Source: Pseudorhodobacter sp. PARRP1 (lineage in GTDB: Bacteria; Pseudomonadota; Alphaproteobacteria; Rhodobacterales; Rhodobacteraceae). Taken from it: DNA of 64,000 nt. The stretch is taken from positions 372,001 through 436,000 of the forward strand of contig NKIU01000001.1 in the NCBI GenBank assembly GCA_002256245.1, given 5' to 3'. The position numbers and the translations under genes were made by a program. A model generated the notes under the pieces. That model saw nothing but the letters and a program-made list of their open reading frames with translations. It had not been told where the DNA came from and ran no database searches. Shown piece by piece: positions 3,709-34,285 of the stretch (position 1 is the stretch's first letter; every line of letters begins with the position of its first letter).

Positions 3709-3727
3709 CCCCGGATCAAGTCCGGGG
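3709..3727. repeat. GGATCAAG palindromic repeat, copy 1
   Basis: CCCCGGA-TCAAG-TCCGGGG is a 7-bp-stem palindrome followed by GCGGCG. It is the first of five copies in this window and lies just after the dipeptidase stop codon, between convergent genes. It may act as a transcription terminator or simply be a dispersed repeat. Confidence 0.8.
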
Positions 3728-20070: not shown

Positions 20071-20387
20071 CTGGGGTTCCTTAGAAATACAAAGGCGCTG
20101 GTCTGTGGCCGACCATGAGTGAAACTTACCTACGATAAATGCTGCGTTAGCACAATTATTCTACCAAAGACAGCATAACGCAGATCAAGATTCGTCGGAA
20201 GTCTGATTTTTGGGCAAACGCCCGCCGACGCCTGCGCAATTATGCGCCATTTCTGCGGCAAGCGCCGCAACAGCAGCGCGCGCTGCACTTGCCCGGCATT
20301 AACCCGGTTTCTGTAGCACTGCGACCCTACGCCCTGCGCGCGCCGCAGTGGCTGGTCAATGCGGGCAAATCGAGGCGAGGTGACGCG
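20071..20387. other. Intergenic region of 317 bp with divergent promoters
   Basis: This stretch separates the divergent sugar dehydratase and pectate-lyase-fold genes. It has an AT-rich portion (about 20126-20175) suited to promoters, then a GC-rich leader for the rightward gene. Small open frames crossing it have no ribosome sites and no recognisable product. I see no RNA gene or repeat. Confidence 0.6.
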
Positions 20388-22679
20388 ATGAACAAGGCAA
20401 TTACCCAAGGGCTGGTGCTGATGCCGCCGCCATTCTCGGCAGGTTTGGCGCTGTGGTCGCGCGAGGATGGCCTGAGTGGTCAGGGATCATATCTGGGGCA
20501 GCCCAATGCGGCCTATGTGCCCGCCGATCAGGATTTCGCGGGCTGTATGGAGTTGCAGAAAACCAGTGCGGTGCAAAAGTTGCGCTGCTTTCAGTCGATC
20601 CCCTGCCAGCCGGGGCTGTATCTGCGGGTCACGGCGCGCGTCAAGGCGGTCAGCGGGGCCTTGCCAGTGGTGCGGATTGCGGGCTGGGCGGGGTCAGGCT
20701 CGGGCAGCAATGTCACAACCGCCGATCAGCAAGGGCCGGATGTGGCGCTGACAAGCTATGGCACGGTTGTGACGGTCAGCGCGATCATCGGCTCGGGCAA
20801 TCGGCCGGGCGTCGATATGGTGTGGGGCACGGCACCCGCCTTTGGCCACTTCGGGCTGGATCTGACCGGGCCCACCGGCGGGGTCGTGCGGATTGACGAC
20901 ATCACCATCGAGGACGTGACGGATGTGTTTCACTCCGAGATGTTCGATTGGGTCGATGTGCGCGATTACGGTGCCGTGGGCGACGGTGTGACCGATGACC
21001 GCGCAGCGTTTGATGCCGCAGACACGGCGGCGGCGGGCAAGACGGTGGTGGTCTCGCCGGGGGTTTACTTCATCGGCAGCCATCTGACCTTTGAAAACCC
21101 GGTGCAGTTTGAGGGCACGATCGTGATGCCCGACAGCCAGCGGCTGGCCTGCACGCGCAACTACAACCTTGATACCTATGCGGCGGCGTTTGGCAGCGAA
21201 TTGGCAGGCTTCAAGAAGGCATTGCAGGCGCTGTTTTACTTCACCGACCACGTCACGCTTGATCTGAACGGGCGGCGGGTCGAGTTGACCGCACCGATCA
21301 ACGTCGCGGCGCTGTGCGGTTTGACCAGCTTTACCACCCGTCGCGCGCTGGTGAATGGCAATCTGGTGGCGGTGGCCGGCACCGCGTGGAACACCCAGAC
21401 CATGACAGCCGTGGCGACCTATACGGTGAGCAATCCGCTGGTGCTGACCGGCGTCGCCAACATCGCGGCGGTTCCGGTGGGTGCGCGGATCAGCGGCACC
21501 GGTGTGGGGCGCGAAGTTTATGTGACCTCAAAGAACGTCGCCACCAGCACGATCAACCTGAGCCGTCCGCTGTGGGCGGCAGCGGGCACGCGCACCTTTA
21601 CCTTTGATCGCTACGCCTACATGCTGGATTTCTCGGGCTTTACCGAGCTGACGCGGTTTCAGATCAAAGAGGTGGAGTTCAGCTGCGGCGGCATCGCCAG
21701 TGGCATCTCTCTGGCCACGACCGGCGCGATCTTTGAGGTCTCGGAATGCATGTTCGGGCTGGTGAAGGATCGCGCGATCACCTCAACCGGCGAGGGCTGT
21801 CAGGATCTGCACATCGACCGCTGCCAGTTCTTTGCCGCCGATCAGGGGCAGCCTGCGCAGAACCGGGTGTCGATGGTGTTCAACGCCAACGCCAATGACA
21901 TCAAGATCCGCAACAACCGGGCCTCGCGCTTTGGCAACTTTGGCGTCGTGGCAGGCTCGGGCGCGATCTTTCTGGGCAACCACTTTTTCGGCGGCGACGA
22001 TGTGCTGCTGAACGGCATCCGCCGCGCGGGTGTGGTGCTGACCTTGCCGAACTCGAAGACGTTCTTCACCGGCAACTACGTCGATAACTACTTCATCGAG
22101 TTGTCGAACGAACACGATTCTACCCCGACCTTTGGCAGCGAATATTCGTTTGGCGGGCTGACCATCACCGGCAACATCTTCATCTGCCAGCACACAGCGC
22201 CGTGGTTTTCGTGGATCGTGGTGACACCGCGCGGGCCGGGGCATTTCATCTCGGGGCTGACGGTGACCAGCAACGTGTTCTCGGCGCGCGGCGAGGATAT
22301 TGACCGGGTGGAATCGATTGACACCAGCTATGCGACGCTGTCGTTCAACTCGTTCCGCAACGTGAATTTCGAGCAGAACACCTTCAACGGCGTGGTGCAG
22401 CGCGCGGTCAGCCCGATGTTGATCGAGCATATCCAGAACACGGTCTCGGACACCTGGGCGGTGAACAGCAACAACCTGCTGCCGTTCGGGGGCCGCGCGC
22501 GCAATGTGACGGCAGTGGTGGCAGAAGGTGCGATCACGAACGGCGCCGGGGCCGCGCAGTTCGTAGCGCCCTACACGCAGGTGGAACAGGGCGCTGGCGG
22601 GCAGTTTGCCAACCTGAAATGGCCCACCCCGGTGAAGGGCCGCGTGCAGGTGACGCTGCGGGTCGATAACCCGGTGTAA
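20388..22679 (+). CDS. Pectate-lyase-fold (glycosyl hydrolase 28-related) polysaccharide protein
   Basis: A 763-residue protein with no signal peptide. The central signature VRDYGAVGDGVTDDRAAF (about residues 188-205) is the start of a Pectate_lyase_3 right-handed beta-helix domain, and the rest shows the Asn/Gly-rich repeating strands expected of a parallel beta-helix (for example LTITGNIFICQ and LTVTSNVFSA). Such proteins cleave or bind polysaccharides or act as tailspike-like fibres. The ATG at 20388 follows GAGG. It is divergent from a FlaA1-type dehydratase, so processing or chain-length control of an exopolysaccharide is a fair inference. Missing secretion signal suggests non-classical export or a cytoplasmic role. 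Confidence 0.82.
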   Translation: MNKAITQGLVLMPPPFSAGLALWSREDGLSGQGSYLGQPNAAYVPADQDFAGCMELQKTSAVQKLRCFQSIPCQPGLYLRVTARVKAVSGALPVVRIAGWAGSGSGSNVTTADQQGPDVALTSYGTVVTVSAIIGSGNRPGVDMVWGTAPAFGHFGLDLTGPTGGVVRIDDITIEDVTDVFHSEMFDWVDVRDYGAVGDGVTDDRAAFDAADTAAAGKTVVVSPGVYFIGSHLTFENPVQFEGTIVMPDSQRLACTRNYNLDTYAAAFGSELAGFKKALQALFYFTDHVTLDLNGRRVELTAPINVAALCGLTSFTTRRALVNGNLVAVAGTAWNTQTMTAVATYTVSNPLVLTGVANIAAVPVGARISGTGVGREVYVTSKNVATSTINLSRPLWAAAGTRTFTFDRYAYMLDFSGFTELTRFQIKEVEFSCGGIASGISLATTGAIFEVSECMFGLVKDRAITSTGEGCQDLHIDRCQFFAADQGQPAQNRVSMVFNANANDIKIRNNRASRFGNFGVVAGSGAIFLGNHFFGGDDVLLNGIRRAGVVLTLPNSKTFFTGNYVDNYFIELSNEHDSTPTFGSEYSFGGLTITGNIFICQHTAPWFSWIVVTPRGPGHFISGLTVTSNVFSARGEDIDRVESIDTSYATLSFNSFRNVNFEQNTFNGVVQRAVSPMLIEHIQNTVSDTWAVNSNNLLPFGGRARNVTAVVAEGAITNGAGAAQFVAPYTQVEQGAGGQFANLKWPTPVKGRVQVTLRVDNPV

Positions 22680-22690
22680 GCCGAGACTTC

Positions 22691-22900
22691 GCAGCGAAAG
22701 CAAACTCTGCGGGGCAGAGTTTGCCGCTGCGTTGCTCATAAGGCTGAAAGCCGTTGAGCAAGGGGCGTTGTGCAGCAATCCAGCGATGGGGAAATCGGGG
22801 CGCGCCTGACTGGGCTGGCGCGTGCAAACGCGCCTGCCGGGGGCAGGCAGGCGCGGCCCGATTTGGCGCGGGCCAAATCGGGCAAGATGACCTGCGTTGC
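22691..22900 (+). repeat. Multi-hairpin structured repeat, copy 1
   Basis: About 200 bp that recur in inverted orientation near 32.9 kb. From 5' to 3' it holds a 10-bp hairpin (CAAACTCTGC, loop GGG), a two-tier hairpin beginning TTGCTCATAAGGCT, and three mutually complementary arms: 22793-22808, 22848-22863 and 22872-22883. Arm 2 can pair with arm 1 (15 of 16 bp) or overlapping bases with arm 3 (12 of 12 bp). It lies between the beta-helix gene and the convergent split-barrel gene. No open frame in it is credible. Confidence 0.85.
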
Positions 22901-22916
22901 GAAAGCGCCAGGAAGT

Positions 22917-23450
22917 CTAACGCAAATCTTCCGCAGTAAACCGAAACGCCTTGCCAAAGCCGCCGTTCAGCAACGCCGATTGCGGCAGCAGGCGCACGAA
23001 GGCAAAATCAGGCAGGTCGATGTAAAGGGTCGCCTTCGGGTGGCCCTTTAGCCAATGCGCCCGCAAGCCCGGGCGCTGCGGATCATCGCCCGCCACAAAC
23101 GCAGCCATTGCCCGGATCATCAGGCGCGGATGCGTCAACGGATCGCCCTTTTCGCCCGGCTCTCCCAGCATCACCGCGCAGGCCGGATTTGCCCGCAACG
23201 CCGCCGTGTGCGGCGCCAAACCTGAGACAAGCGCCATCGGCACGCCGTCCGCATCCAGCCCAAAGGCGATGCGGCTGATCCCCGGTGTTTGGCTTTCGGC
23301 ATCAACATAGGCCAGCGCGGCATGATGCGCCTGCATCAAACCGCGCGCCAAGGCGCGCGCCTCGGCATCGGCTGTGGCAACAGGATCGCGGGAAACAGTG
23401 GCGGGGGCAACAGGATCGCGGGAAACAGGATCGGGGCGTTTTGTGGTCAT
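22917..23450 (-). CDS. Pyridoxamine-5'-phosphate-oxidase-like flavin split-barrel protein (HugZ-like)
   Basis: A 177-residue protein matching the FMN-binding split-barrel family often annotated as pyridoxamine 5'-phosphate oxidase-related or HugZ-like. Typical segments are ALAYVDAESQTPGISRIAF, ALVSGLAPHTAALRANPACA and the ending FVRLLPQSALLNGGFGKAFR. It may bind flavin or heme; the true substrate is unknown. The N-terminus from the ATG at 23450 contains a tandem 10-residue duplication with VSRDPVA twice, a low-complexity linker. It is convergent with the beta-helix gene and divergent from acsA. A longer reading to 23603 has no ribosome site or conservation that I recognise. Confidence 0.82.
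   Translation of the reverse strand: MTTKRPDPVSRDPVAPATVSRDPVATADAEARALARGLMQAHHAALAYVDAESQTPGISRIAFGLDADGVPMALVSGLAPHTAALRANPACAVMLGEPGEKGDPLTHPRLMIRAMAAFVAGDDPQRPGLRAHWLKGHPKATLYIDLPDFAFVRLLPQSALLNGGFGKAFRFTAEDLR
23376..23428 (-). repeat. 30-bp-period tandem duplication at the start of the split-barrel gene
   Basis: A 23-bp identical sequence (GGCAACAGGATCGCGGGAAA and three more bases) occurs at 23376 and 23406. The 30-bp period keeps the reading frame, giving two copies of a VSRDPVA-containing decapeptide near the N-terminus. Confidence 0.8.
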
Positions 23451-23876
23451 ATCGGGCCTTTGAAACCAAAGCGCGGGGCTGCGGTGGCGTGATCTGCATC
23501 GCAGATCGGCTGCCGGGAGACCCGCTTGCGCTATCATGCGAATCACCCTTTTGTGAACCGGGCATTGCGCCACAGCCGCGCGCAGCACCAACACCGGCCA
23601 CAACCGCCGCGCGTTCCACCCCCGCCACCCCCACCCGGCTGTGCCCGCAACCCGCCCCCGCGTGACGCTCCGTCATTTCATTGCCAATTTTCCAATAATT
23701 GACAAAATTCACCACCTTGCTTGTCAATTTATTTACAGAAAAACTGCATGAATAAAAAGAGTTACCAATTATTTTACAACTGCGCTATGATCACGCTACA
23801 AACGGGGGAGCCCTGCCCTATCCGGCAGGCCGTTGGGGCGGGTCGCAAGACCTGACTGGGAACTGGGGAGAGAGTT
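23451..23876. other. Intergenic region of 426 bp upstream of acsA
   Basis: The left part is GC-rich with a small hairpin (GATCTGC-ATC-GCAGATC, 23491-23507). The right part (about 23670-23800) is markedly AT-rich and should hold the acsA promoter and regulatory sites. I see no RNA gene; open frames here are short and lack ribosome sites. Confidence 0.6.
23698..23728 (+). promoter_or_regulatory. Inverted repeat ATTGACAA-N15-TTGTCAAT in the acsA upstream region
   Basis: Two perfect 8-bp half-sites separated by 15 bases lie in the AT-rich region about 150 bp before acsA. The left half contains TTGACA, which could be a -35 element, so the repeat may be an operator overlapping a promoter. The regulator is not identifiable from sequence. 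Confidence 0.45.
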
Positions 23877-25838
23877 ATGTCTGACCACGCTGCTGCGCAG
23901 AAATATGCGGCTTCGGATGAATTTGTAGCCCATGCGCATGTGAACGCCGCGCAGTATCAGACGATGTATGCGGCCTCGGTCGCAGATCCGGTGGCGTTCT
24001 GGGCCAAGGAAGGTCAGCGCATCGACTGGATCAAGGATTTCACCCGCGTGAAAGACACCAGCTTCAAGCGCGGCGAAGTCTCGATCAAATGGTTTGAAGA
24101 CGGCACGCTGAACGTCTCGGCCAACTGCATCGACCGCCACATGGTCACCCGCGCCAACCAGACCGCGATCATCTGGGAACCCGATGATCCGAAAACCCCC
24201 GCCCAGCACATCACCTATGCCCAACTGCTGGAAAACACCTCGCGCATGGCGAATGTGCTGAAATCGCATGGTGTTTCGCGTGGTGACCGCGTGGTGATCT
24301 ATCTGCCGATGATCCCCGAAGCCGCCTATGCCATGCTGGCCTGCGCGCGGATCGGGGCAATCCATTCCATCGTGTTCGCGGGCTTCTCGCCCGATGCCTT
24401 GGCCAACCGCATCAATGACTCGGACGCCAAGGTGGTGATCACCGCCGATTTCGCGCCGCGTGGCGGCAAGAAGACCGGGCTGAAGAACAACACCGACGCC
24501 GCCCTGTTGCATTGCAACGACCATGTGAAATGTCTGGTGGTCAAGCACACCGGCGATCAGACCTCGTGGGTCGATGGCCGCGATATCGACGTGAAGGCCG
24601 AGATGGCCACCGCCAAACCCTATTGCCCCTATGTCGAAATGGGCGCGGAAGACCCGCTGTTCATCCTTTACACCTCCGGCTCGACCGGCAAGCCGAAGGG
24701 GGTTGTGCATACCTCGGGCGGCTATCTGGTCTATGCCGCGATGACGCAGCAGATCACCTTCGATTACCACGACGGCGATGTGTTCTGGTGCACCGCCGAT
24801 GTCGGCTGGGTGACGGGCCACAGCTATATCATCTACGGCCCGCTGGCGAATGGCGCGACCACGGTGATGTTCGAAGGTGTGCCAACCTTCCCCGATGCAG
24901 GCCGCTTCTGGGAGGTGTGCGCCAAGCACAAGGTGTCGCAATTCTACACCGCCCCCACCGCGATCCGCTCGCTGATGGGCATGGGGCCGGAATGGCCCGC
25001 CAAGCATGACCTTTCCAGCCTGAAGCTGCTGGGTTCGGTGGGCGAGCCGATCAACCCCGAGGCTTGGAATTGGTATAACCAGCATGTCGGCAAGGGCCGC
25101 TGCCCCATCGTCGATACGTTCTGGCAGACCGAAACCGGCGGCCATCTGATCACGCCGCTGCCGGGGGCGATTGCGCAGAAACCCGGCTCGGCCACCCTGC
25201 CGTTCTTCGGCATCACCCCCATCGTGCTCGACCCCGCCACCGCCAAGGTGCAGGACGCGGTGGAAACCGATGGTGTGCTGTGCATCGCCGACAGTTGGCC
25301 GGGCCAGATGCGCACGCTGTGGGGCGATCATGCCCGGTTCGAGGAAGCCTATTTCAGCCAATACCCCGGCTATTACTTCACCGGCGACGGCTGCAAGCGC
25401 GATGCCGATGGCTATTACTGGATCACCGGCCGCGTGGATGATGTGATCAACGTCTCGGGTCACCGCATGGGCACCGCAGAGGTCGAAAGCGCGCTCGTCG
25501 CCCACCCGAAAGTGGCGGAAAGCGCCGTGGTCGGCTACCCGCATGACATAAAGGGTCAAGGCATCTACGCCTATGTGACGCTGATGAAGGGCGAAGAACC
25601 CAGCGACGCCCTGCGCAAGGAACTTGAGGCTTGGGTGCGCACCGAAATCGGCCCGATCGCCAAGCCCGATCTGATCCAATGGGCCCCCGGCCTGCCAAAA
25701 ACCCGCTCGGGCAAGATCATGCGCCGCATCCTGCGCAAGATCGCCGAGAATGATTTCGGCGCTTTGGGCGATACCAGCACCCTCGCCGATCCGTCGGTGG
25801 TGGATGATCTGATCGCCAACCGCATGAACAAGGGCTGA
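23877..25838 (+). CDS. acsA: Acetyl-coenzyme A synthetase, AMP-forming
   Basis: Enzyme of 653 residues, the standard length, converting acetate, ATP and CoA to acetyl-CoA, AMP and PPi. The ATP-binding motif [15 protein letters not shown] lies near residue 265. Later adenylation motifs are visible as [11 protein letters not shown] and [21 protein letters not shown]. The C-terminal [11 protein letters not shown] contains K613, the lysine whose acetylation inactivates this enzyme in many bacteria. GGGGAGAG precedes the ATG. It is followed after 3 bp by adk and then by an MHS-type transporter, so the unit is suited to growth on acetate or similar short acids. Upstream is an AT-rich region with an inverted repeat. 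Confidence 0.97.
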
Positions 25839-25841
25839 GGC

Positions 25842-26501
25842 ATGGCACCTGTCCTGATCCTGCTTGGTCCCCCCGGCGCGGGCAAAGGCACCCAAGCCCG
25901 GATGCTCGAGGAAGACTTCGGTCTGATCCAGCTTTCCACCGGCGACCTTTTGCGCGCAGCGGTGGCGGCGGGCACGCCTGCGGGGTTGGCCGCCAAGGCG
26001 GTGATGGCAGCGGGTGGCCTTGTCTCGGACGATATCGTGCTCGCGATCCTGAAGGATCGGATGGCGCAGGCAGACGTGGCAAAGGGCATCATTCTGGATG
26101 GCTTTCCGCGCACCGCAGGCCAAGCCGCCGCACTCGATACCCTGCTGGCGCAATCGGGCCAAAAGATCACCGCCGCGATCAGCCTTGAGGTTGACGATGA
26201 CGCGATGATCGAACGCGTGGCAGGCCGCTACACCTGCACCTGCGGCGAAGGCTATCACGACACGTTCAAGCGCCCCACCCATGCGGGCACTTGCGACAAA
26301 TGCGGCGGCACCACCTTCAAACGCCGCCCCGATGACAACGCCGAAACGGTGCGCGACAGGCTGGCCGCCTATCACGCCCAAACGGCGCCGCTGATTGCCT
26401 ATTACGACGACAAGGGCGTGCTGGAACGCATCAACGCGATGGGCCCCATCGCCGAGATCCGCGAAAGCCTTGCCCAGATCGTCGCAGGCATCACGGCCTG
26501 A
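25842..26501 (+). CDS. adk: Adenylate kinase with zinc-type LID domain
   Basis: A 219-residue adenylate kinase (ATP + AMP to 2 ADP). The P-loop is GPPGAGKGT at residues 9-17, the AMP-binding segment LSTGDLLR at 31-38 and the catalytic DGFPRT at 86-91. The LID contains four Cys (132, 134, 151, 154), but the first pair is CxC rather than the usual CxxC, which may weaken or alter zinc binding. The gene starts 3 bp after acsA, so it is co-translated with the AMP-producing synthetase, a clear functional pairing. Alphaproteobacteria normally carry another adk in the ribosomal protein cluster, so this may be a second copy. Confidence 0.93.
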   Translation: MAPVLILLGPPGAGKGTQARMLEEDFGLIQLSTGDLLRAAVAAGTPAGLAAKAVMAAGGLVSDDIVLAILKDRMAQADVAKGIILDGFPRTAGQAAALDTLLAQSGQKITAAISLEVDDDAMIERVAGRYTCTCGEGYHDTFKRPTHAGTCDKCGGTTFKRRPDDNAETVRDRLAAYHAQTAPLIAYYDDKGVLERINAMGPIAEIRESLAQIVAGITA

Positions 26502-26662
26502 CAGCATACCCCGCCGCCGGAGGAGCGACGGCGGGGGTTACACGACCAGACCAGACAGCCGTTGGCTGAACCCCGCTTGCCGGGGATCGCAATAGGCTTG
26601 CCCGGCGCTGGACAAGGATAGGGAACCGGCGAGACCATCGCCGCATAACAGGGAGGCCTAAC

Positions 26663-28540
26663 ATGGCACTAGCACCCGACGCGAGCGTGCGCTCACGTCC
26701 AATGACGGCGGAGGAACGCAAGGTCATCTTGGCCTCGTCCGCCGGCACCATCTTTGAATGGTATGACTTCTACCTCTACGGTTCGCTCGCCGCGATCATC
26801 GGCGCGCAGTTCTTCACGCCGTTCCCCGAAGCCACCCGCAACATCTTCGCGCTGCTGGCCTTTGCCGCAGGCTTCATCGTGCGCCCGTTCGGCGCGCTGG
26901 TGTTCGGCAGCCTCGGAGACTTGATCGGGCGGAAATACACCTTCCTGATGACGATCCTGATCATGGGTCTGTCAACCTTCCTCGTCGGCATCCTGCCCGG
27001 CTATCAAAGCTGGGGCATCGCCGCCCCGATCATCCTGATCGGCCTGCGCATGCTGCAAGGCTTGGCCTTGGGGGGTGAATACGGTGGCGCTGCGGTCTAT
27101 GTGGCTGAACACGCGCCACAAAACCGTCGCGGCTATTACACCTCGTTCATCCAGACCACGGCGACCCTTGGTCTGCTGTTGTCCTTGGTGGTGATCCTGC
27201 TGCTGACCGGCTACGTCAACGGCAACTACCCGACCGTGCCGCAAGTTGGCCTTGATGGCGCACCGCTGCTCGATGCCAAAGGCGTGCAAGTCATGCTCGA
27301 GCCGTGGAAAGCCTGGGGCTGGCGCCTGCCGTTCATCGGCTCGCTGGCACTTCTGGCGGTGTCGCTGTATATCCGCCTGACCATGCACGAAAGCCCGGCC
27401 TTCAAGAAGATGAAGGAAGAGGGTGCGGCCTCGAAAGCCCCGCTGCGCGAAGCCTTCGGCCAGTGGAAAAACGCCAAGATCGCCCTGATCGCGCTGTTCG
27501 GTCTGACTGCCGGGCAAGCCGTGGTCTGGTATTCCGGCCAGTTCTACGCGCTGTTCTTCCTGCAAAACGTCGTCAAGGTGGACAGCTATTCGGCCAACGT
27601 CTTTGTGGCTTGGTCGCTGATCCTGGGCACCGGGGGCTTTTTGTTCTTCGGCGCGCTGTCTGACAAAATCGGCCGCAAGCCGATCATTCTGGCAGGCTGC
27701 CTGATTGCCGCGATCACCTACTTCCCGGTGTTCAACGCGCTGACCAAAGTCGCCAACCCGGCGCTGCACGCCGCACAAGACACCCCGGTTGTGGTCACGG
27801 CAAACCCGGCGGATTGCTCGTTCCAGTTCAACCCAGTCGGCACCGCCAAGTTCACCAAATCCTGTGACATCGCCAAGGCGTTGCTGCTGAAAGGCTCGGT
27901 CAACTCGACCACCGTCGAGGCCCCGGCTGGCACGATTGCCTCGGTGAAAATCGGCGAAACCGTGATCCCTGCCTATGATGGCAGCGTCAACGGCAAGGCG
28001 ATTGCGGATGCCAAAGCGGCGCTTGAAACCGCCAAAGCCGGCACCGATCAGGCCGCAACCGATGCAGCGCAAGCGGCACTGGACGCAGCCAATGGCGTGA
28101 AAGCCGGGTTCGAAAAGTCGATCAACGATGCGCTGACGGCGGCAGGCTATCCGCTGGTCGCAGCCGACAATACCACGGTGGCAAAGGTCGGTGGCTTCTT
28201 TGACATCTTCTCGGCGCAGAACCTGAGCGTCGTGGCGATCCTGACCTATCTGATCATTCTGGTGACGATGGTTTACGGCCCGATTGCGGCCATGCTGGTC
28301 GAGTTGTTCCCGACCCGTATCCGCTACTCGGGGATGTCGCTGCCCTACCACATCGGCAACGGCTGGTTCGGTGGCTTGCTGCCCGCAACCGCACTGGCGA
28401 TCTCGGCCCAGACCGGCAATATCTATTCGGGTCTGTGGTATGCGATCGTTGTCGCCCTTGCGACAGTGGTGATCGGCACGCTGCTGGTGCCGAACGGCAC
28501 GCACAAGAAAGACATCTTCTCGGATGCCAACAACCGCTGA
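26663..28540 (+). CDS. MHS-family MFS transporter with a large periplasmic loop
   Basis: A 625-residue secondary transporter, long for MFS (typically 420-450). Twelve membrane segments are readable, with family motifs GTIFEWYDFYLYG in TM1 and GDLIGRK after TM2. Between TM9 and TM10, residues about 363-519 form a soluble insert predicted to be periplasmic. It has two Cys (C385, C401) that could form a disulfide and an Ala-rich, probably helical stretch (about 443-497). MHS proteins carry small organic solutes with protons (for example citrate, proline, shikimate). Position 161 bp after acsA-adk suggests a short-chain acid, but this is inference. The ATG at 26663 follows GGGAGG. Confidence 0.9.
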   Translation: MALAPDASVRSRPMTAEERKVILASSAGTIFEWYDFYLYGSLAAIIGAQFFTPFPEATRNIFALLAFAAGFIVRPFGALVFGSLGDLIGRKYTFLMTILIMGLSTFLVGILPGYQSWGIAAPIILIGLRMLQGLALGGEYGGAAVYVAEHAPQNRRGYYTSFIQTTATLGLLLSLVVILLLTGYVNGNYPTVPQVGLDGAPLLDAKGVQVMLEPWKAWGWRLPFIGSLALLAVSLYIRLTMHESPAFKKMKEEGAASKAPLREAFGQWKNAKIALIALFGLTAGQAVVWYSGQFYALFFLQNVVKVDSYSANVFVAWSLILGTGGFLFFGALSDKIGRKPIILAGCLIAAITYFPVFNALTKVANPALHAAQDTPVVVTANPADCSFQFNPVGTAKFTKSCDIAKALLLKGSVNSTTVEAPAGTIASVKIGETVIPAYDGSVNGKAIADAKAALETAKAGTDQAATDAAQAALDAANGVKAGFEKSINDALTAAGYPLVAADNTTVAKVGGFFDIFSAQNLSVVAILTYLIILVTMVYGPIAAMLVELFPTRIRYSGMSLPYHIGNGWFGGLLPATALAISAQTGNIYSGLWYAIVVALATVVIGTLLVPNGTHKKDIFSDANNR

Positions 28541-28561
28541 GCGGTGACGGTGTGAACATGC

Positions 28562-28593
28562 AAAGGGCCGCAGGGAAACCTGCGGCCCTTTTG
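28562..28593 (+). terminator. Intrinsic terminator of the MHS transporter gene
   Basis: A 10-bp GC-rich stem (GGGCCGCAGG, loop GAAA, CCTGCGGCCC) flanked by AAA and TTTT lies 21 bp after the stop codon. The A and T flanks make it potentially bidirectional, also serving the convergent small membrane protein gene. Confidence 0.9.
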
Positions 28594-28606
28594 CGTTGAT
28601 GGGTGG

Positions 28607-28888
28607 TCAGGCCCGAAGGCGCAGATACAGCGTCCAAGCGCCCAGAATGATCGCAAGCCAGATCACATTGGCCACGATCCCTGCGCCAATCGCCGCAGCC
28701 AAAGGCACAGCCAGCCCGGCCTGCGCGGTCAGCGGCAGCAGCACCGCCACAAACACCGCTCCGATGGCCAAGGGGATCACCGTCCCCGACGCCGCGCGCG
28801 TGCGCAGCATGGTGATGAACAACGCGATCAACAGCCCGATGCGGAACGGATCAGACAGTTGCAGCAAAAGCAGATCAGAAAGGGACAT
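28607..28888 (-). CDS. Small hypothetical membrane protein
   Basis: A 93-residue protein with three hydrophobic segments (about residues 15-30, 36-57 and 63-90) and few charged residues, so almost certainly an inner-membrane protein. I do not recognise a family with a known function. It lies alone between the terminator of the MHS transporter gene and an intergenic repeat region. The ATG at 28888 is preceded by a weak GAGCG site. Coding potential is supported by membrane-like composition and by clean boundaries with its neighbours, not by homology. Confidence 0.65.
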   Translation of the reverse strand: MSLSDLLLLQLSDPFRIGLLIALFITMLRTRAASGTVIPLAIGAVFVAVLLPLTAQAGLAVPLAAAIGAGIVANVIWLAIILGAWTLYLRLRA

Positions 28889-28967
28889 GCGCGCTCCTAT
28901 GGTTTACGCAATGTTAGGCGACAGAAGCGAGATGATCCAGCAGCCGCTGCGCGCTGCATCGGCCAAG

Positions 28968-29017
28968 CCGGGGGCCAGCCCCCGGACCCCCGGGATATTT
29001 AAGCAGAGAGGATGACC
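28968..29017 (+). repeat. GGATATTT/AGAGAGGATGACC dispersed element, copy C
   Basis: Hairpin GGGGGCCAGCCCCC, then GGACCCCCGGGATATTT, then AAGCAGAGAGGATGACC. Its layout matches copies A and F. Confidence 0.8.
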
Positions 29018-29152
29018 AGAAGCGTTAACTTGGTTTTAACCCGAATCTTTCAGTGTCAAACAGCGGGACAGGCGGGGACGCCGATGACCGCCAGAGGGGA
29101 TGGCACCCCGTGGCAAGATACGTTCTGCTGTCGGGGTGCTTGACCTTCGCGC

Positions 29153-29217
29153 TCATCCTCTCTGCGCAAATATCCTCGGGGGTAGCCCGAAGGGCGCAGG
29201 GGGCAGACAGCCCCCTG
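29153..29217 (-). repeat. GGATATTT/AGAGAGGATGACC dispersed element, copy D
   Basis: On the minus strand it reads GGGGGCTGTCTGCCCCC (hairpin), then GGGCTACCCCCGAGGATATTT with one base skipped into the core GCGCAGAGAGGATGAG. The hairpin loop sequence is shared with copy G. Confidence 0.78.
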
Positions 29218-29237
29218 ATTTTTCGCAGAAAAATGGC

Positions 29238-30014
29238 TTACAGGCCCGCGAAAGGATCAACCGGATAGCCAACTCCGGTCATATACAGCCCGTCGGGCGG
29301 CGAGACCGGCCCGCAGGCGGCGCGGTCGGCGGCTTGCAGCGCCGCTTTCACCTGATCCGGCGCCCAGGCCCCAGCCCCCACCCGCTCCAGCGTGCCGACG
29401 ATCGAGCGGACCTGGTTGTGCAGGAAACTTCGCGCGCGCAGGGTGAAGCGGTATTCCACACCGGCCGGATAAGGCAGCGCCACGATGGACACCTCATCCA
29501 GCGATTTCACCGGGCTGGCGGCTTGGCAGTAGGTCGAGCGGAAGGTGGTGAAATCATGCTTGCCGATCAGATGCGCCGCCCCCGCCCGCATCGCGTCCAG
29601 ATCCAGCGGGGAATGCACGCGCCAGACCTTGCCGCGATCATGCGTCGCGGGCGCGCGGCGGGCAATCAGCCGGAACAGATAGCGCCGCTCGCGCGCCGAA
29701 AACCGCGCGTGAAAATCGTCGTCCACCCGCACCACTGCCAGCACCGACACCGGATGGGGCCGCAGATGCGCGTTCAGCGCGGATGCCAACCGAAAGCAGT
29801 CCCATTCCTTGGCCAGATCGCAATGCGCCACCTGCCCCGTCGCATGCACCCCGGAATCCGTCCGCCCCGCGGCGGCAATCGTATGCGGCCCCGGCTCTAG
29901 CCGCGCCAGCGCCGCTTCAATCGCGCCCTGCACCGTCAACTGCCCGCCCGCCTGGCGCTGCCAGCCGTTGAACGGGCCTCCGTCGTAGTCGATGAGCATG
30001 GCATATCTGGGCAT
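29238..30014 (-). CDS. truA: tRNA pseudouridine(38-40) synthase
   Basis: A 258-residue enzyme that converts uridines 38-40 of the tRNA anticodon arm to pseudouridine. The N-terminal [12 protein letters not shown] and the catalytic motif [14 protein letters not shown], with the essential Asp near residue 52, are diagnostic. The C-terminal half shows [20 protein letters not shown], the other conserved TruA block. Length is normal. It stands alone on the minus strand, divergent from the ycjX gene with 95 bp between the start codons. It is a housekeeping gene with no sign of change. Confidence 0.96.
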
Positions 30015-30109
30015 GGCCGTTCAGTTACCGCGCGGGCGCTTGCGTGTCCATGCCTTCCAAAACCAGCCCCCACCCCCTATGTTCACACTGAACAGAAGGA
30101 TGATGCCGC

Positions 30110-31516
30110 GTGTTTTCCAGCCTGACCAATGGCATCGCCCGCCAGATCGAGGCCGCAGCCTCGGCGCTGACCGGATACGAACCCGTGTTGCGCATCGGCG
30201 TCACCGGCCTGAGCCGCGCGGGCAAGACCGTGTTCATCACCAGCCTTGTCGCCAACCTGCTTGACCGCGCGCGGATGCCGCAACTGTCCGCCCAATCGCA
30301 GGGCCGCATCGAGGCGGTCTATCTGCAACCGCAGCCCGACGACACCCTGCCCCGCTTTGCCTTCGAGGATCACCTGGCCGCGATGACCGGCGATGATCCG
30401 CGCTGGCCGCAATCCACCCGTGCGGTGTCCGAACTCCGCCTGTCGTTCCGCACCCGTCCCGGCGGTTTCATCAACAGCCTGTCGGGCCCGCGCACCCTGC
30501 ATGTCGATATCGTCGATTACCCCGGTGAGTGGCTTTTGGACCTTGCCCTGCTGGATAAATCCTACGCCGAATGGTCGGAGGAAACCCTGCATCGCATCGC
30601 CAAACGCAGCCAAGCTGCGGGTTTCATGGCCCATGCCCGCGCCGAGGATGGCAGCCTGCGCCTTGACGAAACCCGCGCGCAGGCGCTTTCCGCCGCCTTC
30701 ACCGATTACCTGAAAGCCGCCCGCGCCGCGGGTTGGTCCGATTGCACGCCGGGCCGCTTTCTGTTGCCGGGAGACCTTGCAGGCTCCCCGGTCCTTACCT
30801 TCGCCCCCCTGCCCGCACCCGCACAAACCCCGCGCGGCAGCCTGTGGCGCGAGATGCAGCGCCGCTACGACGCTTACAAATCCCGCGTCATCCAGCCGTT
30901 CTTCCGCGAGCATTTCGCCAAGATTGATCGCCAGATCGTCCTCGTCGATGTGCTTTCTGCCCTGCATCAAGGCCCGCAAGCCGTGGAAGACCTGCGCCGC
31001 ACCATGGCCGACGTGCTGGATGCCTTCCGCCCCGGTCGCAACGGCTGGCTGACCGGCATCCTGGGCGGCAAACGGGTGGAGAAAATCCTGTTCGCCGCCA
31101 CCAAGGCCGATCATCTGCACCACACCCAGCACCCGGCCCTTACCGGCATCATGCGCGCCATGCTGCGCGAGGCCGTCAGCCGCGCCGATTTCGCAGGCGC
31201 GCAGACGGCGGCGATCTCGATGGCAAGCCTGCGCTCGACCGTGGAAGAAACCGTTCTGCGCGAAGGGGTTAGCCTTTATGCCGTGCGCGGGCGCTTGCTG
31301 TCGAACGGCAAGCAGGCGGTGATGTATCCGGGTCAGTTGCCCACCGATCCCACCCGCTTGCTGTCGCCCGCCCGCGAAGGCGCGGAAAAGTGGCTCGATG
31401 CCGACTACGCCCTGATGGAGTTTGCCCCTGCCCGCACCACCCTGCGCCCCGGCGAAGGCCCGCCACATATCCGGCTGGACCGCGCCGCCGAATTCCTGAT
31501 CGGAGACCGCTTGTGA
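30110..31516 (+). CDS. YcjX family P-loop GTPase/ATPase-like protein (DUF463)
   Basis: A 468-residue protein with a Walker A motif in GVTGLSRAGKTVFITSL (about residues 28-44). Other conserved YcjX segments are HVDIVDYPGEWLLDL (a Walker B/G3-like stretch) and FAATKADHLHHTQHPAL (a G4-like region). In E. coli the homologue is part of the stress-induced psp/ycj region; the biochemical role is not settled. Translation begins with GTG at 30110, with AAGGA nine bases upstream. The stop overlaps the GTG of the ycjF-like gene (GTGA), so the two are translationally coupled, as in many Proteobacteria. Confidence 0.9.
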   Translation: MFSSLTNGIARQIEAAASALTGYEPVLRIGVTGLSRAGKTVFITSLVANLLDRARMPQLSAQSQGRIEAVYLQPQPDDTLPRFAFEDHLAAMTGDDPRWPQSTRAVSELRLSFRTRPGGFINSLSGPRTLHVDIVDYPGEWLLDLALLDKSYAEWSEETLHRIAKRSQAAGFMAHARAEDGSLRLDETRAQALSAAFTDYLKAARAAGWSDCTPGRFLLPGDLAGSPVLTFAPLPAPAQTPRGSLWREMQRRYDAYKSRVIQPFFREHFAKIDRQIVLVDVLSALHQGPQAVEDLRRTMADVLDAFRPGRNGWLTGILGGKRVEKILFAATKADHLHHTQHPALTGIMRAMLREAVSRADFAGAQTAAISMASLRSTVEETVLREGVSLYAVRGRLLSNGKQAVMYPGQLPTDPTRLLSPAREGAEKWLDADYALMEFAPARTTLRPGEGPPHIRLDRAAEFLIGDRL

Positions 31517-32547
31517 GCCTTGAAGACCCGCCCCGCCTGCATGGCCCCTTGATGCAGGAATATGACGGTGACGCAGCCGACCCCGGTCTGGCAGATGCGC
31601 TGCCAGAGCACGGGGCAGATGCTGGTGCCGCCCGCGCGCTGAACACCGCCGCCGTGCTGGCCAACCGCCGCGGCTCGGGCTTCACCCGCTTTGCGCTTTG
31701 GGTGTTTGGCAGTCTGTTCACGCTGATCCTGTCGGTGTCGGCATGGAACTTCGTGATCGGCTTGTTCAGTGAAAACTCTGTCTTGGGCTGGGTGGCCTTC
31801 GTTCTGCTGATGCTGGCGCTGTTGGTGGTGCTGGTGGTCTCGGCGCGCGAGGTGTTGGCGTTTTCGCGCATGGCGCGGCTGGATCGGTTGCGCGTGAACG
31901 CGGCCGAGGCGCGGATGGCGGGCGATCTGAAAGCCGCCCGCGCCGTGGTGGCAAGCCTGACCAGCCTTTACGCCGACCGCGCCGATACCGCATGGGGCCG
32001 CGCCCGTCTGGCCGAGCGTGGACCCGAGGTGTTTGACGCCGACGCCATGCTGTCACTGGCCGAGGTTGAACTTTTGGCCCCGCTGGACCGCGCCGCACTG
32101 GCCGAGGTTGAGGCCGCCGCGCGTCAAGTCGCCACCGTCACCGCCTTTGTGCCCTTGGCCTTGGCCGATGTGGCGACGGCGCTGTATTCCAACCTCAAGC
32201 TGATCCGGCGTCTGTCGCAGATTTACGGCGGGCGGTCGGGCAGCCTGGGCAGCTTTCGCCTGATGCGCCGTGTGTTCTCGGCCCTGCTGGGCGCGGGCGC
32301 GATTGCCTTGGCCGATGATCTGGTAGGCTCGGTCGCCTCGGGTGGCTTGCTGGCCAAGATTTCCCGCCGCTTTGGCGAAGGCGTGGTGAACGGTGCCCTG
32401 ACCGCCCGCGTCGGCCTCGCCGCGATGGAGCTTTCGCGCCCGATGCCCTTCGTGGCCCTGCCGCGACCGGGCACCAGCGCCACCACCAGCCGCGCCTTGG
32501 CGGGGTTGTTCGGGCGGGCGGAAAAGGCCGACGAGCAACTCCCCTAA
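31513..32547 (+). CDS. YcjF/TIGR01620 family membrane protein (DUF697)
   Basis: A 344-residue inner-membrane protein partnered with YcjX. Two membrane segments lie near residues 62-85 and 96-120, and a C-terminal DUF697-type domain includes TAFVPLALADVATALYSNLKL and GLLAKISRRFGEGVVNG. The GTG start at 31513 overlaps the ycjX stop. The 3' end of the gene (about 78 bp) plus a GGATCAAG palindrome are repeated tandemly just downstream, giving two decayed extra copies of its last codons. Role unknown; a membrane-stress or cell-envelope role is suggested for the family. Confidence 0.88.
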   Translation: MSLEDPPRLHGPLMQEYDGDAADPGLADALPEHGADAGAARALNTAAVLANRRGSGFTRFALWVFGSLFTLILSVSAWNFVIGLFSENSVLGWVAFVLLMLALLVVLVVSAREVLAFSRMARLDRLRVNAAEARMAGDLKAARAVVASLTSLYADRADTAWGRARLAERGPEVFDADAMLSLAEVELLAPLDRAALAEVEAAARQVATVTAFVPLALADVATALYSNLKLIRRLSQIYGGRSGSLGSFRLMRRVFSALLGAGAIALADDLVGSVASGGLLAKISRRFGEGVVNGALTARVGLAAMELSRPMPFVALPRPGTSATTSRALAGLFGRAEKADEQLP

Positions 32548-32555
32548 CCCCGCCG

Positions 32556-32574
32556 CCCCGGACTTGATCCGGGG
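32556..32574. repeat. GGATCAAG palindromic repeat, copy 2
   Basis: CCCCGGACTTGATCCGGGG, in the opposite orientation to copy 1, 8 bp after the ycjF-like stop codon and inside tandem unit 1. Confidence 0.85.
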
Positions 32575-32678
32575 CCTGATGGCGAATGACGCGAGGCACC
32601 AGCGCACCACCCGCCGCGCCATGGCAGGTCTGTTCGGGCGGGCGGAAAGGCCGACGATCACCCCCCCTAACCCCGCCG

Positions 32679-32697
32679 CCCCGGACTTGATCCGGGG
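32679..32697. repeat. GGATCAAG palindromic repeat, copy 3
   Basis: Identical to copy 2 and placed at the equivalent position of tandem unit 2, showing the palindrome was duplicated together with the gene end. Confidence 0.85.
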
Positions 32698-32821
32698 CCT
32701 CGTGGCGTGCAAAGCAAGGCACCAGCGCCACCACCAGCCGCGCCTTGGCGGGGTTGTTCGGGCGGGCCGAAAAGGCCGACGAGCAATTCCCCTAACCGTG
32801 CAACACTTACATGCCAGATCG

Positions 32822-33035
32822 GACGTGGCGCAGCATTTGCCTTGCAAGATTTGGCCGCAGACAAATCTTGCCGCGCCTGCCTGCCCTCGGCAGGCGCGTT
32901 TCCGCGCCCGCCCAGCCAGGCGCGGCAAGATTGGAGCGCGCAGGTTTACTGCATCAAACCCCTTGCTCAACGGCCTTCAGCCTTATGAGCAACGCACCGG
33001 AAAACTCTGCCCCGCAGAGTTTTCTTTCGGCGCGG
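32822..33035 (-). repeat. Multi-hairpin structured repeat, copy 2 (inverted)
   Basis: The reverse complement aligns along its whole length with the copy at 22.7-22.9 kb. Its arms are 32917-32932, 32864-32879 and 32844-32853. Arms 1 and 2 are perfectly complementary over 16 bp, and arms 2 and 3 share a 10-bp complement. Where copy 1 has CGGG/CCCG in the arms, this copy has CTTG/CAAG, changed in all three arms together. The flanking 10-bp hairpin (AAAACTCTGC, loop GGG) is also kept. Confidence 0.85.
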
Positions 33036-33109
33036 GTCCAGTCCTCAATCGGCTCAAAGGTTAAAAATGTCTTAAATCACACACCCTAACCCACTGATTT
33101 ACAACCACT

Positions 33110-33134
33110 AAAAAAGGTCCCGAGTTGGGACCGC
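33110..33134 (-). terminator. Intrinsic terminator of argE
   Basis: On the minus strand GGTCCC-AACTC-GGGACC is followed by TTTTTTAG, a few bases after the argE stop codon. The stem sequence is shared with hairpins at 14755 and 35250. Confidence 0.88.
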
Positions 33135-33136
33135 CG

Positions 33137-34285
33137 CTAAAACCCCACCTCACAGCGCTCCACCAGCGCCGCCAGCATCGCCCGGCAGCGCTCAATCTGC
33201 TCGATGGATACAAACTCATCCGGCTTGTGCCCCTGCGCCATCGACCCCGGCCCGCAGATCACCGTCGGGATGCCAAGGCGGGCATCAAACAGCCCGCCCT
33301 CGGTTCCGAAAGCCACCTTGATCGTCCCGTTCGCCCCGGTCAGCGATTTCACGAAATTCACCACCCCCGCGTCCGATGGCGTGCCAAGGCCGGGGTAATC
33401 CCACAGCCGCTCAATCCTGATCTCCGCCTCGGGAAACTCTGCCCGCAGCGGCGCCACGATAGCCTCCGCCCCCGCCCGCAGATCGGCAATCAAGGCGTCG
33501 GTGTCCTCTCCGGCCAGACTGCGGATTTCAAAGTCGATCACGGCAGAATTGGGCACGATATTCACCTGCACCCCACCATTCAGCTTGCCGACATGCAGCG
33601 TCGAATAGGGCACATCATAGTCGCCATCCCGCAACCCCGTCGCCGCCACCCGCGCCTGCAGACCCCGCACCACCCCAACAAAATCCGCCGCCAGATGCAG
33701 CGCATTCAACGCGAGCGGCGCCAGCGCCGAATGCCCTTCCCGGCCCACACACGTCGCCCGCAAGGCAATCTTGCCCTTGTGCCCGGTCGCGACCTGCATC
33801 GCGGTAGGCTCCCCCACAATACACATCCGCGGGCGGATGGGGGCTGCCTCCAGCATCTCGATCAAACTGCGCACGCCCATGCAGCCGATTTCCTCATCGT
33901 AGGACAAAGCCAGATGCAGCGGCACTTTCAGCGGGCGTTTGCTGGCCGCCAGAACCGCCTCGATCGCGCAGGCGGCGAACCCCTTCATGTCGGCCGCACC
34001 CCGGCCGTAGTAGCGGGCGTCCCGCTCGGTCAGCCCAAACGGCGGCACGGTCCAGGCCTGCCCTTCTACCGGGACAACATCGGTATGCCCCGACAGCATC
34101 ACCCCCGCCACCCCCTCCTGCCCGACGGTGGCATAGAGGTTCGCCTTGCCGCCCGACGGATCAGGGATCAGCGTGGCAGCGATACCCGCCTTGGCCAGCA
34201 TCTCTTGCACATAGGCCATAAGGGCGCTGTTCGGCTTGGAGCTGACGGTATCAAAGCTGAGCAGTCGGTCCAAAATCGCGCGCAT
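33137..34285 (-). CDS. argE: Acetylornithine deacetylase
   Basis: M20-family zinc hydrolase of 382 residues that removes the acetyl group from N-acetylornithine in arginine synthesis. Metal-binding motifs are visible: LSGHTDVVPV (His and Asp near residue 67), YGRGAADMKGF with the bridging Asp, and SYDEEIGCMG with the catalytic Glu pair. The C-terminal block IPTVICGPGSMAQGHKPDEF carries the last zinc His. Length fits ArgE; related succinyl-diaminopimelate desuccinylases are similar in size, but overall motifs favour ArgE. It stands alone, convergent with the ycjF-like gene, and ends at a clear terminator. Confidence 0.9.
   Translation of the reverse strand: MRAILDRLLSFDTVSSKPNSALMAYVQEMLAKAGIAATLIPDPSGGKANLYATVGQEGVAGVMLSGHTDVVPVEGQAWTVPPFGLTERDARYYGRGAADMKGFAACAIEAVLAASKRPLKVPLHLALSYDEEIGCMGVRSLIEMLEAAPIRPRMCIVGEPTAMQVATGHKGKIALRATCVGREGHSALAPLALNALHLAADFVGVVRGLQARVAATGLRDGDYDVPYSTLHVGKLNGGVQVNIVPNSAVIDFEIRSLAGEDTDALIADLRAGAEAIVAPLRAEFPEAEIRIERLWDYPGLGTPSDAGVVNFVKSLTGANGTIKVAFGTEGGLFDARLGIPTVICGPGSMAQGHKPDEFVSIEQIERCRAMLAALVERCEVGF

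Follow-up and report, generated by a model that had tools for sequence, protein, structure and literature searches.

What are the two hairpin-rich segments of about 200 bp that lie in opposite orientation in a 64,000-nucleotide stretch of contig NKIU01000001.1 of Pseudorhodobacter sp. PARRP1 (hereafter the window), and why do they differ by concerted changes in arms that can pair with one another? An earlier, sequence-only reading had aligned 22691-22900 along its full length with the reverse complement of 32822-33035. Pairwise alignment confirmed that the segments are homologous over their entire length and inverted relative to each other, and model searches refined their limits: the sites at 22689-22885 on the plus strand (copy 1; covariance-model match of 220.5 bits) and 32842-33035 on the minus strand (copy 2; 201.6 bits) are copies of a dispersed, non-coding repeat of about 195 bp. 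In agreement with the non-coding nature claimed for both, no coding-like frame was found in either copy by the simple codon-usage caller on which, without annotation, all gene calls used here rest. The claim of a paired element held as regards the two copies, but these belong to a large family rather than to a pair. Overall, the repeat is probably a non-autonomous, mobile, palindromic DNA element, encoding nothing and spread by an enzyme from elsewhere.

A covariance-model search of the own and related genomes, which the sequence-only reading had proposed, brought out many further copies. When copy 1 was searched by BLAST in the 4.35-Mb genome from which it comes, 55 matches appeared, many being partial or antisense; 30 places were fetched and set on one strand, and the 28 full-length ones (the shorter L029 and L030 being omitted) were aligned to build a covariance model, R1. 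Matches above 100 bits numbered 32 in the own Cypionkella genome, 15 in G007 (two of them identical, flanks included, and possibly an assembly duplicate), 14 in G004, 7 each in G001 and G005, 5 in G009 and 1 in G012, while 8 of the 15 Cypionkella genomes had none. Among 295 genomes of the family, at least 33 matched R1 at E 0.001 or better and at least 11, the own one included, exceeded 75 bits (10 other genera); among 337 genomes spread across the class, a small number belonging to the same family, a match was obtained in the own genome alone. Both scans give lower bounds, as at most 8 candidates were scored per genome under stricter filters. In named genomes, a scan with a narrow pattern hit 3 Cypionkella loci, and a distant blastn search of plasmid and phage collections with copy 1 gave no match. 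Rfam had no match at gathering score within the window; for copy 1 the best sub-threshold match was sX13 (E 0.084; 20.6 bits, with 50 needed), on the opposite strand. No description of the repeat was found in the literature searched, which leaves out most subscription journals; a term search of PMC2267715, on families of stem-loops, likewise gave nothing. In a tree of 58 copies, those of G004 were the only ones to group by genome (support 76/89), and genome labels were clustered overall (20 changes versus 27.2 when shuffled; none of 200 shuffles that low).

The comparison of homologous spacers between species bears directly on mobility. At all five own-genome loci compared, at least two relatives keep the same gene ends and lack the element (24 relative loci, two being omitted for a missing flank); several of these empty spacers carry other sequence, as is the case in both relatives at L006. 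Four spacers harbor the repeat in opposite orientations in different species (L003/L152, L017/L140, L022/L088 and L023/L063), and a fifth such case (L002/L192) came from the empty-site alignments. The ends are sharp in the 68 copies above 150 bits (CGAACCG at the 5' end and GGGCAAG at the 3' end), with a weak base preference outside, no strong target consensus at the insertion sites and no target duplication (mean longest string shared by the flanks, 3.53 versus 3.37 when shuffled; range, 3.09 to 3.62). Terminal inverted repeats are not apparent, the consensus ends having no inverted similarity by eye, with no separate search made.

Placement relative to genes was determined for 86 of 95 matches from five genomes (the nine lowest, below 59 bits, being omitted), and 75 element-bearing spacers have called genes on both sides. 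Convergent spacers made up 44 of these 75 element-bearing spacers versus 11 of 48 spacers in the window (p = 1e-4), and divergent ones 5 of 75 versus 12 of 48 (p = 0.006) or 6 of the 22 window spacers of at least 100 bp (p = 0.02). Likewise, gene 3' ends accounted for 114 of the 150 edges of element-bearing spacers versus 47 of 96 window edges (p = 2e-5), and for 62 of the 86 copies an inward-facing stop is no more than 50 bp away. A first background (5/59 convergent; p = 7e-10) was replaced as biased, since the neighbour of a convergent spacer cannot itself be convergent; against the window spacers, the convergent signal is weaker but persists. No orientation preference was seen: a gene end adjoined the 5' edge in 64 cases and the 3' edge in 61. 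Such placement fits survival where insertion harms least, with no host function required, and the finding of dispersed copies in gene 3' spacers is in line with the mobile-looking, structured element that had been proposed from the letters alone.

The window segment 22691-22890 folds well beyond its shuffles (z = -6.4 as RNA and -9.0 as DNA). In 5' to 3' order, the repeat comprises hairpins H1 and H2 and then a GGGG with a linker that leads to arm 1; a GC-rich rod separates arm 1 from arm 2, a short loop separates arm 2 from arm 3, and CAAG closes the element. In copy 1 (plus strand throughout), H1 occupies 22690-22731, as found by RNAalifold of the copies, by the fold of the 5' module across genera and by a DNA fold. 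It had been described as a 10-bp hairpin; the hairpin stands but is two-tier, with a lower stem of 7 bp (22690-22696 with 22725-22731) and an upper stem of 11 bp closed by a 3-base loop (22700-22710 with 22714-22724). H2 (22732-22761) pairs TTGCTCA with TGAGCAA around an inner GGCT-GAA-AGCC, and the alignment places the GGGG and a less conserved linker at 22762-22792, up to arm 1. Arm 1 (AATCGGG, 22793-22799) was delimited by the 3' module alignment and pairing tests; the rod (22801-22855) is laid out as a-b-loop-c-d, with a pairing to d and b to c, or else a to b and c to d. The middle arm 2 (CCCGATT, 22857-22863; pairing tests and enforced folds) can take as partner either arm 1 or arm 3 (AATCGGG, 22876-22882; pairing tests). 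Copy 2, on the minus strand, has H1 at 32993-33034 and H2 at 32963-32992 (alignment and RNAalifold) and, by the 3' module alignment, arm 1 (AATCTTG) at 32926-32932, the rod at 32872-32924, arm 2 (CAAGATT) at 32864-32870 and arm 3 (AATCTTG) at 32845-32851. RNAalifold of the 28 own-genome copies gave 58 pairs, 22 of which have two-sided changes; across genera (26 sequences), 18 of the 21 pairs predicted for the 5' module do. In the 71 copies examined, the H2 loop is G-N-A in 45 of 55 pattern-caught copies and the rod tip GNAA in 39 of 56.

Separate models, R2 for the 3' module and R3 for the 5' module, were run on 26 genomes, picked chiefly as earlier matchers, and their matches mostly co-occur; the 5' module stands without a 3' match at some places in G317, G311 and G026, among the matches listed. 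In G083, which belongs to another genus and consists of a single contig, the 3' module was matched at least 17 times and the 5' module not once; one of its copies (L117, 1501-1651) follows a tRNA-Pro gene at a distance of 38 bases.

The change from AATCGGG/CCCGATT/AATCGGG in copy 1 to AATCTTG/CAAGATT/AATCTTG in copy 2 was correctly described by the sequence-only reading, and the wider family allows both pairings of arm 2 to be assessed. For 26 3' modules from several genera, compared with 500 shuffles in which the kinship of copies was not modelled, (i) the fold with arm 1 paired to arm 2 plus the rod had 96.3% of its cells paired and 9 pairs with two-sided changes, (ii) the fold with arm 2 paired to arm 3 plus two small hairpins had 97.2% and likewise 9 such pairs, (iii) no shuffle equalled either fold in paired percentage, two-sided counts or covariation score, and (iv) slid pairing partners scored far lower than the true ones. 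The covariation comes from the arms (6 of 9 pairs in arm 1:arm 2 and 7 of 9 in the arm 2:arm 3 hairpin); the rod and small hairpins are nearly invariant and hence barely tested by it. Of 71 copies, 50 show an exact match among all three arms and fall into six sequence types (AATCGGG, n = 40; AATCTGG, n = 3; AATCTGC, n = 3; AATCTTG, n = 2; AATCAGG, n = 1; AATCCGG, n = 1), the AATCTTG pair being window copy 2 and its same-site counterpart in G007. At least one arm deviates in the other 21, each differently, and one of these has no arm-1 letters. A general loss of complementarity in other copies, which would speak against the three-arm reading, is therefore absent from the family. To say that the kept pairing implies selection on structure was nevertheless too strong, as template switching in replication can also correct hairpin arms (PMC8794818).

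When either pairing was enforced in 70 copies, the median gap between the two folds was 1.2 kcal/mol as RNA and 0.55 kcal/mol as DNA, with a gap of at most 3 kcal/mol in 33 and 47 copies, respectively; this near equality arises partly by construction, because arms 1 and 3 share sequence. In the enforced folds of copies 1 and 2 the rod is mostly retained in both states, and the choice would therefore chiefly be which outer arm holds arm 2. Of the switch with two exclusive folds that had been claimed, the alternative pairings and their similar predicted energies stand, the latter nearly by construction, while its operation does not follow; we infer that the three arms may act as a working switch. 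Three-way covariation of this kind offers a natural test of whether an alternative pairing is used or merely tolerated.

Constraint at the RNA level should, on the transcribed strand, favor G-U over A-C mispairs. Over six helices of the 3' module, some columns standing in two alternative helices, 34 G-T and 33 A-C mispairs were counted; with such equal counts the module looks strand-symmetric, as expected for DNA. These and the other mispair counts come from related copies, and no exact probability is claimed for them.

The mobile DNA reading draws on the dispersed sharp-ended copies, the empty orthologous sites, the opposite orientations, the preference for 3' ends and the conserved hairpins. 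Given hairpins near both ends, insertion in either orientation and the lack of terminal inverted repeats and of target duplication, we infer that the repeat may move as a folded single strand, in the manner of HUH elements such as IS200/IS605, REPIN or IS91-like ones, by means of an enzyme acting in trans. Pairing would be maintained mainly since badly folding copies fail to propagate; as arm 2 shifts between arms 1 and 3, the 3' end would exist now as a single longer rod, now as a rod with a terminal hairpin; and copies would survive best between convergent genes, where insertion disrupts neither gene nor promoter. Read in this way, the repeat records small mobile DNA filling convergent junctions, with the empty, filled and inverted states of one spacer found in sister species.

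Several observations weigh against this reading. Movement itself was not observed, and no enzyme was found: Y1_Tnp and Y2_Tnp do not track the repeat in the 15 Cypionkella genomes, no dedicated two-end search having been made. The empty-site comparisons concern five loci of one genome, with other sequence in some of the relatives; two of the five opposite-orientation cases involve truncated copies (L152 and L140); and 23 same-site, same-orientation pairs between species, with both flanks matching and the identical duplicate excluded, show that many copies must be old. The convergent signal shrinks with longer spacers (7/22 window spacers of at least 100 bp; p = 0.03). In the 5' module, G-T mispairs exceed A-C ones by 31 to 16 in H1 and 18 to 5 in H2, which hints at a sense-strand RNA role for this part. 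Lastly, one contrast in favor of this reading is weakened: changed pairs of the 5' module comprise 1771 two-sided, 460 broken and 229 wobble pairs among own-genome copies and 19, 23 and 12 at sites shared between species (ten pairs), a contrast (1771:460 versus 19:23) that is expected if folding counts more for propagation than after landing, yet is affected by the choice of copies by best BLAST match, by non-independence and by the doubtful orthology of some pairs. In the 3' module arms, the shared sites gave 8 two-sided, 13 broken and 2 wobble pairs.

The alternative that survives best is a host-serving RNA at mRNA 3' ends, namely a bidirectional terminator or 3' stabiliser whose three arms form an attenuator-like switch. 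The bias towards convergent spacers and the 3' ends of genes, the terminator-like stem of H1 and its short T-run (by eye), the G-T excess in H1 and H2 and the 19 two-sided changes found even at shared sites would all suit it. Nevertheless, we regard it as unlikely: copies are neutral in orientation (64 versus 61), the 3' module lacks a G-T excess, the same spacers manage without the repeat in relatives, other T-run hairpins persist beside some copies (by eye) and Rfam yields sub-threshold matches alone for copy 1. On the same grounds of orientation and neighbouring T-run hairpins, the large terminator put forward earlier is not favored as a primary role; a terminator scan of 22600-23000, around copy 1, found none, which is weak evidence as shuffles average 0.7. 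One arm with two possible partners and folds near in predicted energy do recall attenuator RNA switches, but these differ from the repeat, which neither sits at a set place upstream of a gene nor prefers one orientation.

Lower still do we rate a stronger version of the mobile reading, in which the repeat represents a family-specific class of mobile DNA, the substrate of movement is a bistable single-stranded fold, the exchange of arm 2 between its partners, maintained by three-way covariation, belongs to the movement itself (for example in marking the donor versus the joined end) and the enzyme favors convergent junctions. This we consider quite unlikely.

Less probable again is that the concerted arm changes are mutational, template switching having copied one hairpin arm onto another so that the palindromes maintain themselves. 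The mechanism is described in PMC8794818, the adjacent multi-base change of whole arms from CGGG to CTTG in all three looks like its product, and the equal G-T and A-C counts of the 3' module fit it. Against this, inversion of the spacer, one possible product, is near absent among 60 arm 2-arm 3 loops of the 71 copies, where a single reverse-complementary loop pair was seen (TTTGAAAA, n = 3; TTTTCAAA, n = 1) that point changes could also yield; shared sites, at which template switching should go on acting, have many broken pairs; and the spread and placement of the repeat are left unexplained. Template switching could nonetheless explain part of the concerted arm change and, as a partial cause, would not conflict with mobility.

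Least probable of all, and very doubtful, is a REPIN or BIME mobilised by a transposase associated with repetitive extragenic palindromes (REPs), the REP-associated tyrosine transposase (RAYT, Y1), for although palindromes forming a long hairpin, extragenic sites, spread without target duplication and compensatory changes (reported for REPINs in PMC3116915) are shared, the distribution of Y1_Tnp does not match, the consensus ends of the 68 copies carry neither a GTAG nor a CGTC tag, and the repeat has about 195 bp and two dissimilar modules. Y1_Tnp matches were found in 3 of the 15 Cypionkella genomes (G000, G005 and G006), one of them above cut-off; G006 has no R1 match above 100 bits, and Y1_Tnp was not found in five carriers (G001, G004, G007, G009 and G012, with G009 89% and G012 82% complete). 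On the G000 contig with Y1_Tnp (C28) no R1 copy is listed, and the nearest candidate is a 40-base partial BLAST match 169 kb away. Y2_Tnp occurs in G000, G001, G003 and G004 and was not found in the carriers G005, G007, G009 and G012. By their distribution in these 15 genomes, neither RAYT (Y1) nor IS91-type (Y2) enzymes fit as partners. One G007 locus (L130, 1501-2486) has two direct copies of the repeat about 600 bp apart around a 222-codon open frame with no Pfam match.

Among known elements, HUH elements (IS200/IS605-derived and IS91/ISCR-like) carry hairpins near their ends, lack terminal inverted repeats and do not duplicate the target. The repeat resembles their non-autonomous forms in these three respects and differs in that no partner transposase was found for it among the Y1 and Y2 enzymes of the 15 genomes. 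ERIC, RUP, BOX and similar repeats akin to miniature inverted-repeat transposable elements (MITEs) are non-autonomous, intergenic, 100-200 bp long and rich in strong hairpins. Size, intergenic sites and strong hairpins are alike in the present repeat; unlike MITE-like repeats, it shows no terminal inverted repeats (by eye) and no target duplication. With REPINs, REPs and BIMEs it shares the nature of a short, non-coding, extragenic palindrome in tens of copies, with compensated hairpins and convergent or downstream sites (PMC3116915 and PMC3733652); it is set apart by its length, two modules, three-arm design, absence of a tag and lack of Y1 tracking. PMC3733652 reports convergent placement of REPs and takes GT pairing as support for REP transcription and RNA function, in contrast to the 3' module described here, which has no G-T excess. 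The repeat works like REPIN and BIME repeats yet fails the RAYT-REP and MITE marks tested; according to those two papers, compensatory changes and convergent placement are already known for REPINs and REPs, and the three-arm design and absence of a tracking enzyme are what differs.

Diverged and composite forms were also encountered. L124 to L128 of the own genome make up a further, diverged subfamily that has the same layout with arms based on GGGCAGCGCC / GGCGCTGCCC; of L129 just the 3' part of this subfamily was seen. G011 has four strongly diverged copies (L068, L075, L082 and L089; best match, 47.4 bits), L075 having arms AATCTGAC / GTCAGATT / AATCTGAC. In L120, L136, L148 and L150, an added hairpin pair (about 70 bases; tip TCCAGTGGA) stands at one point of the rod, and L096 has the same pair at a different place in the rod. 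This composite form seems to have spread, since it is present at two different G004 loci.

Regarding the surroundings in the window, copy 1 is flanked, as had been claimed, by convergent genes at 20289-22679 (plus strand) and 22917-23603 (minus strand), whose Pfam assignments are a pectate-lyase-like family and pyridoxamine oxidase (under the curated cut-off). The convergent setting claimed for copy 2 held only in part: it lies behind the stop of the minus-strand gene at 33137-34285, but on its other side a gap of 1.3 kb, which contains 124-bp tandem repeats, precedes the nearest called gene (30110-31516, plus strand). A mechanical plus-strand frame at 31390-32547 was not accepted by the gene caller, and the Pfam assignments of the copy 2 neighbours are an M20 peptidase and a YcjX-like family. 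At 33045-33132 on the minus strand, and also downstream of L006, stands a second hairpin, GGTCCCAACTCGGGACC, with a T-run and a conserved tail of about 80 bp. It was found at least at dozens of places in six of seven Cypionkella genomes searched (G001, G003, G004, G005, G007 and G009), G003 being without the main repeat, with none in G014 among the matches listed, and it appears to be another dispersed family, linked to terminators. The tandem array adjoining copy 2 (32470-32797) consists of three units at 124-bp spacing, with the palindrome CCCCGGATCAAGTCCGGGG at 32556 and 32679, and exact palindromes occur elsewhere in the window at 3709 and 48718.

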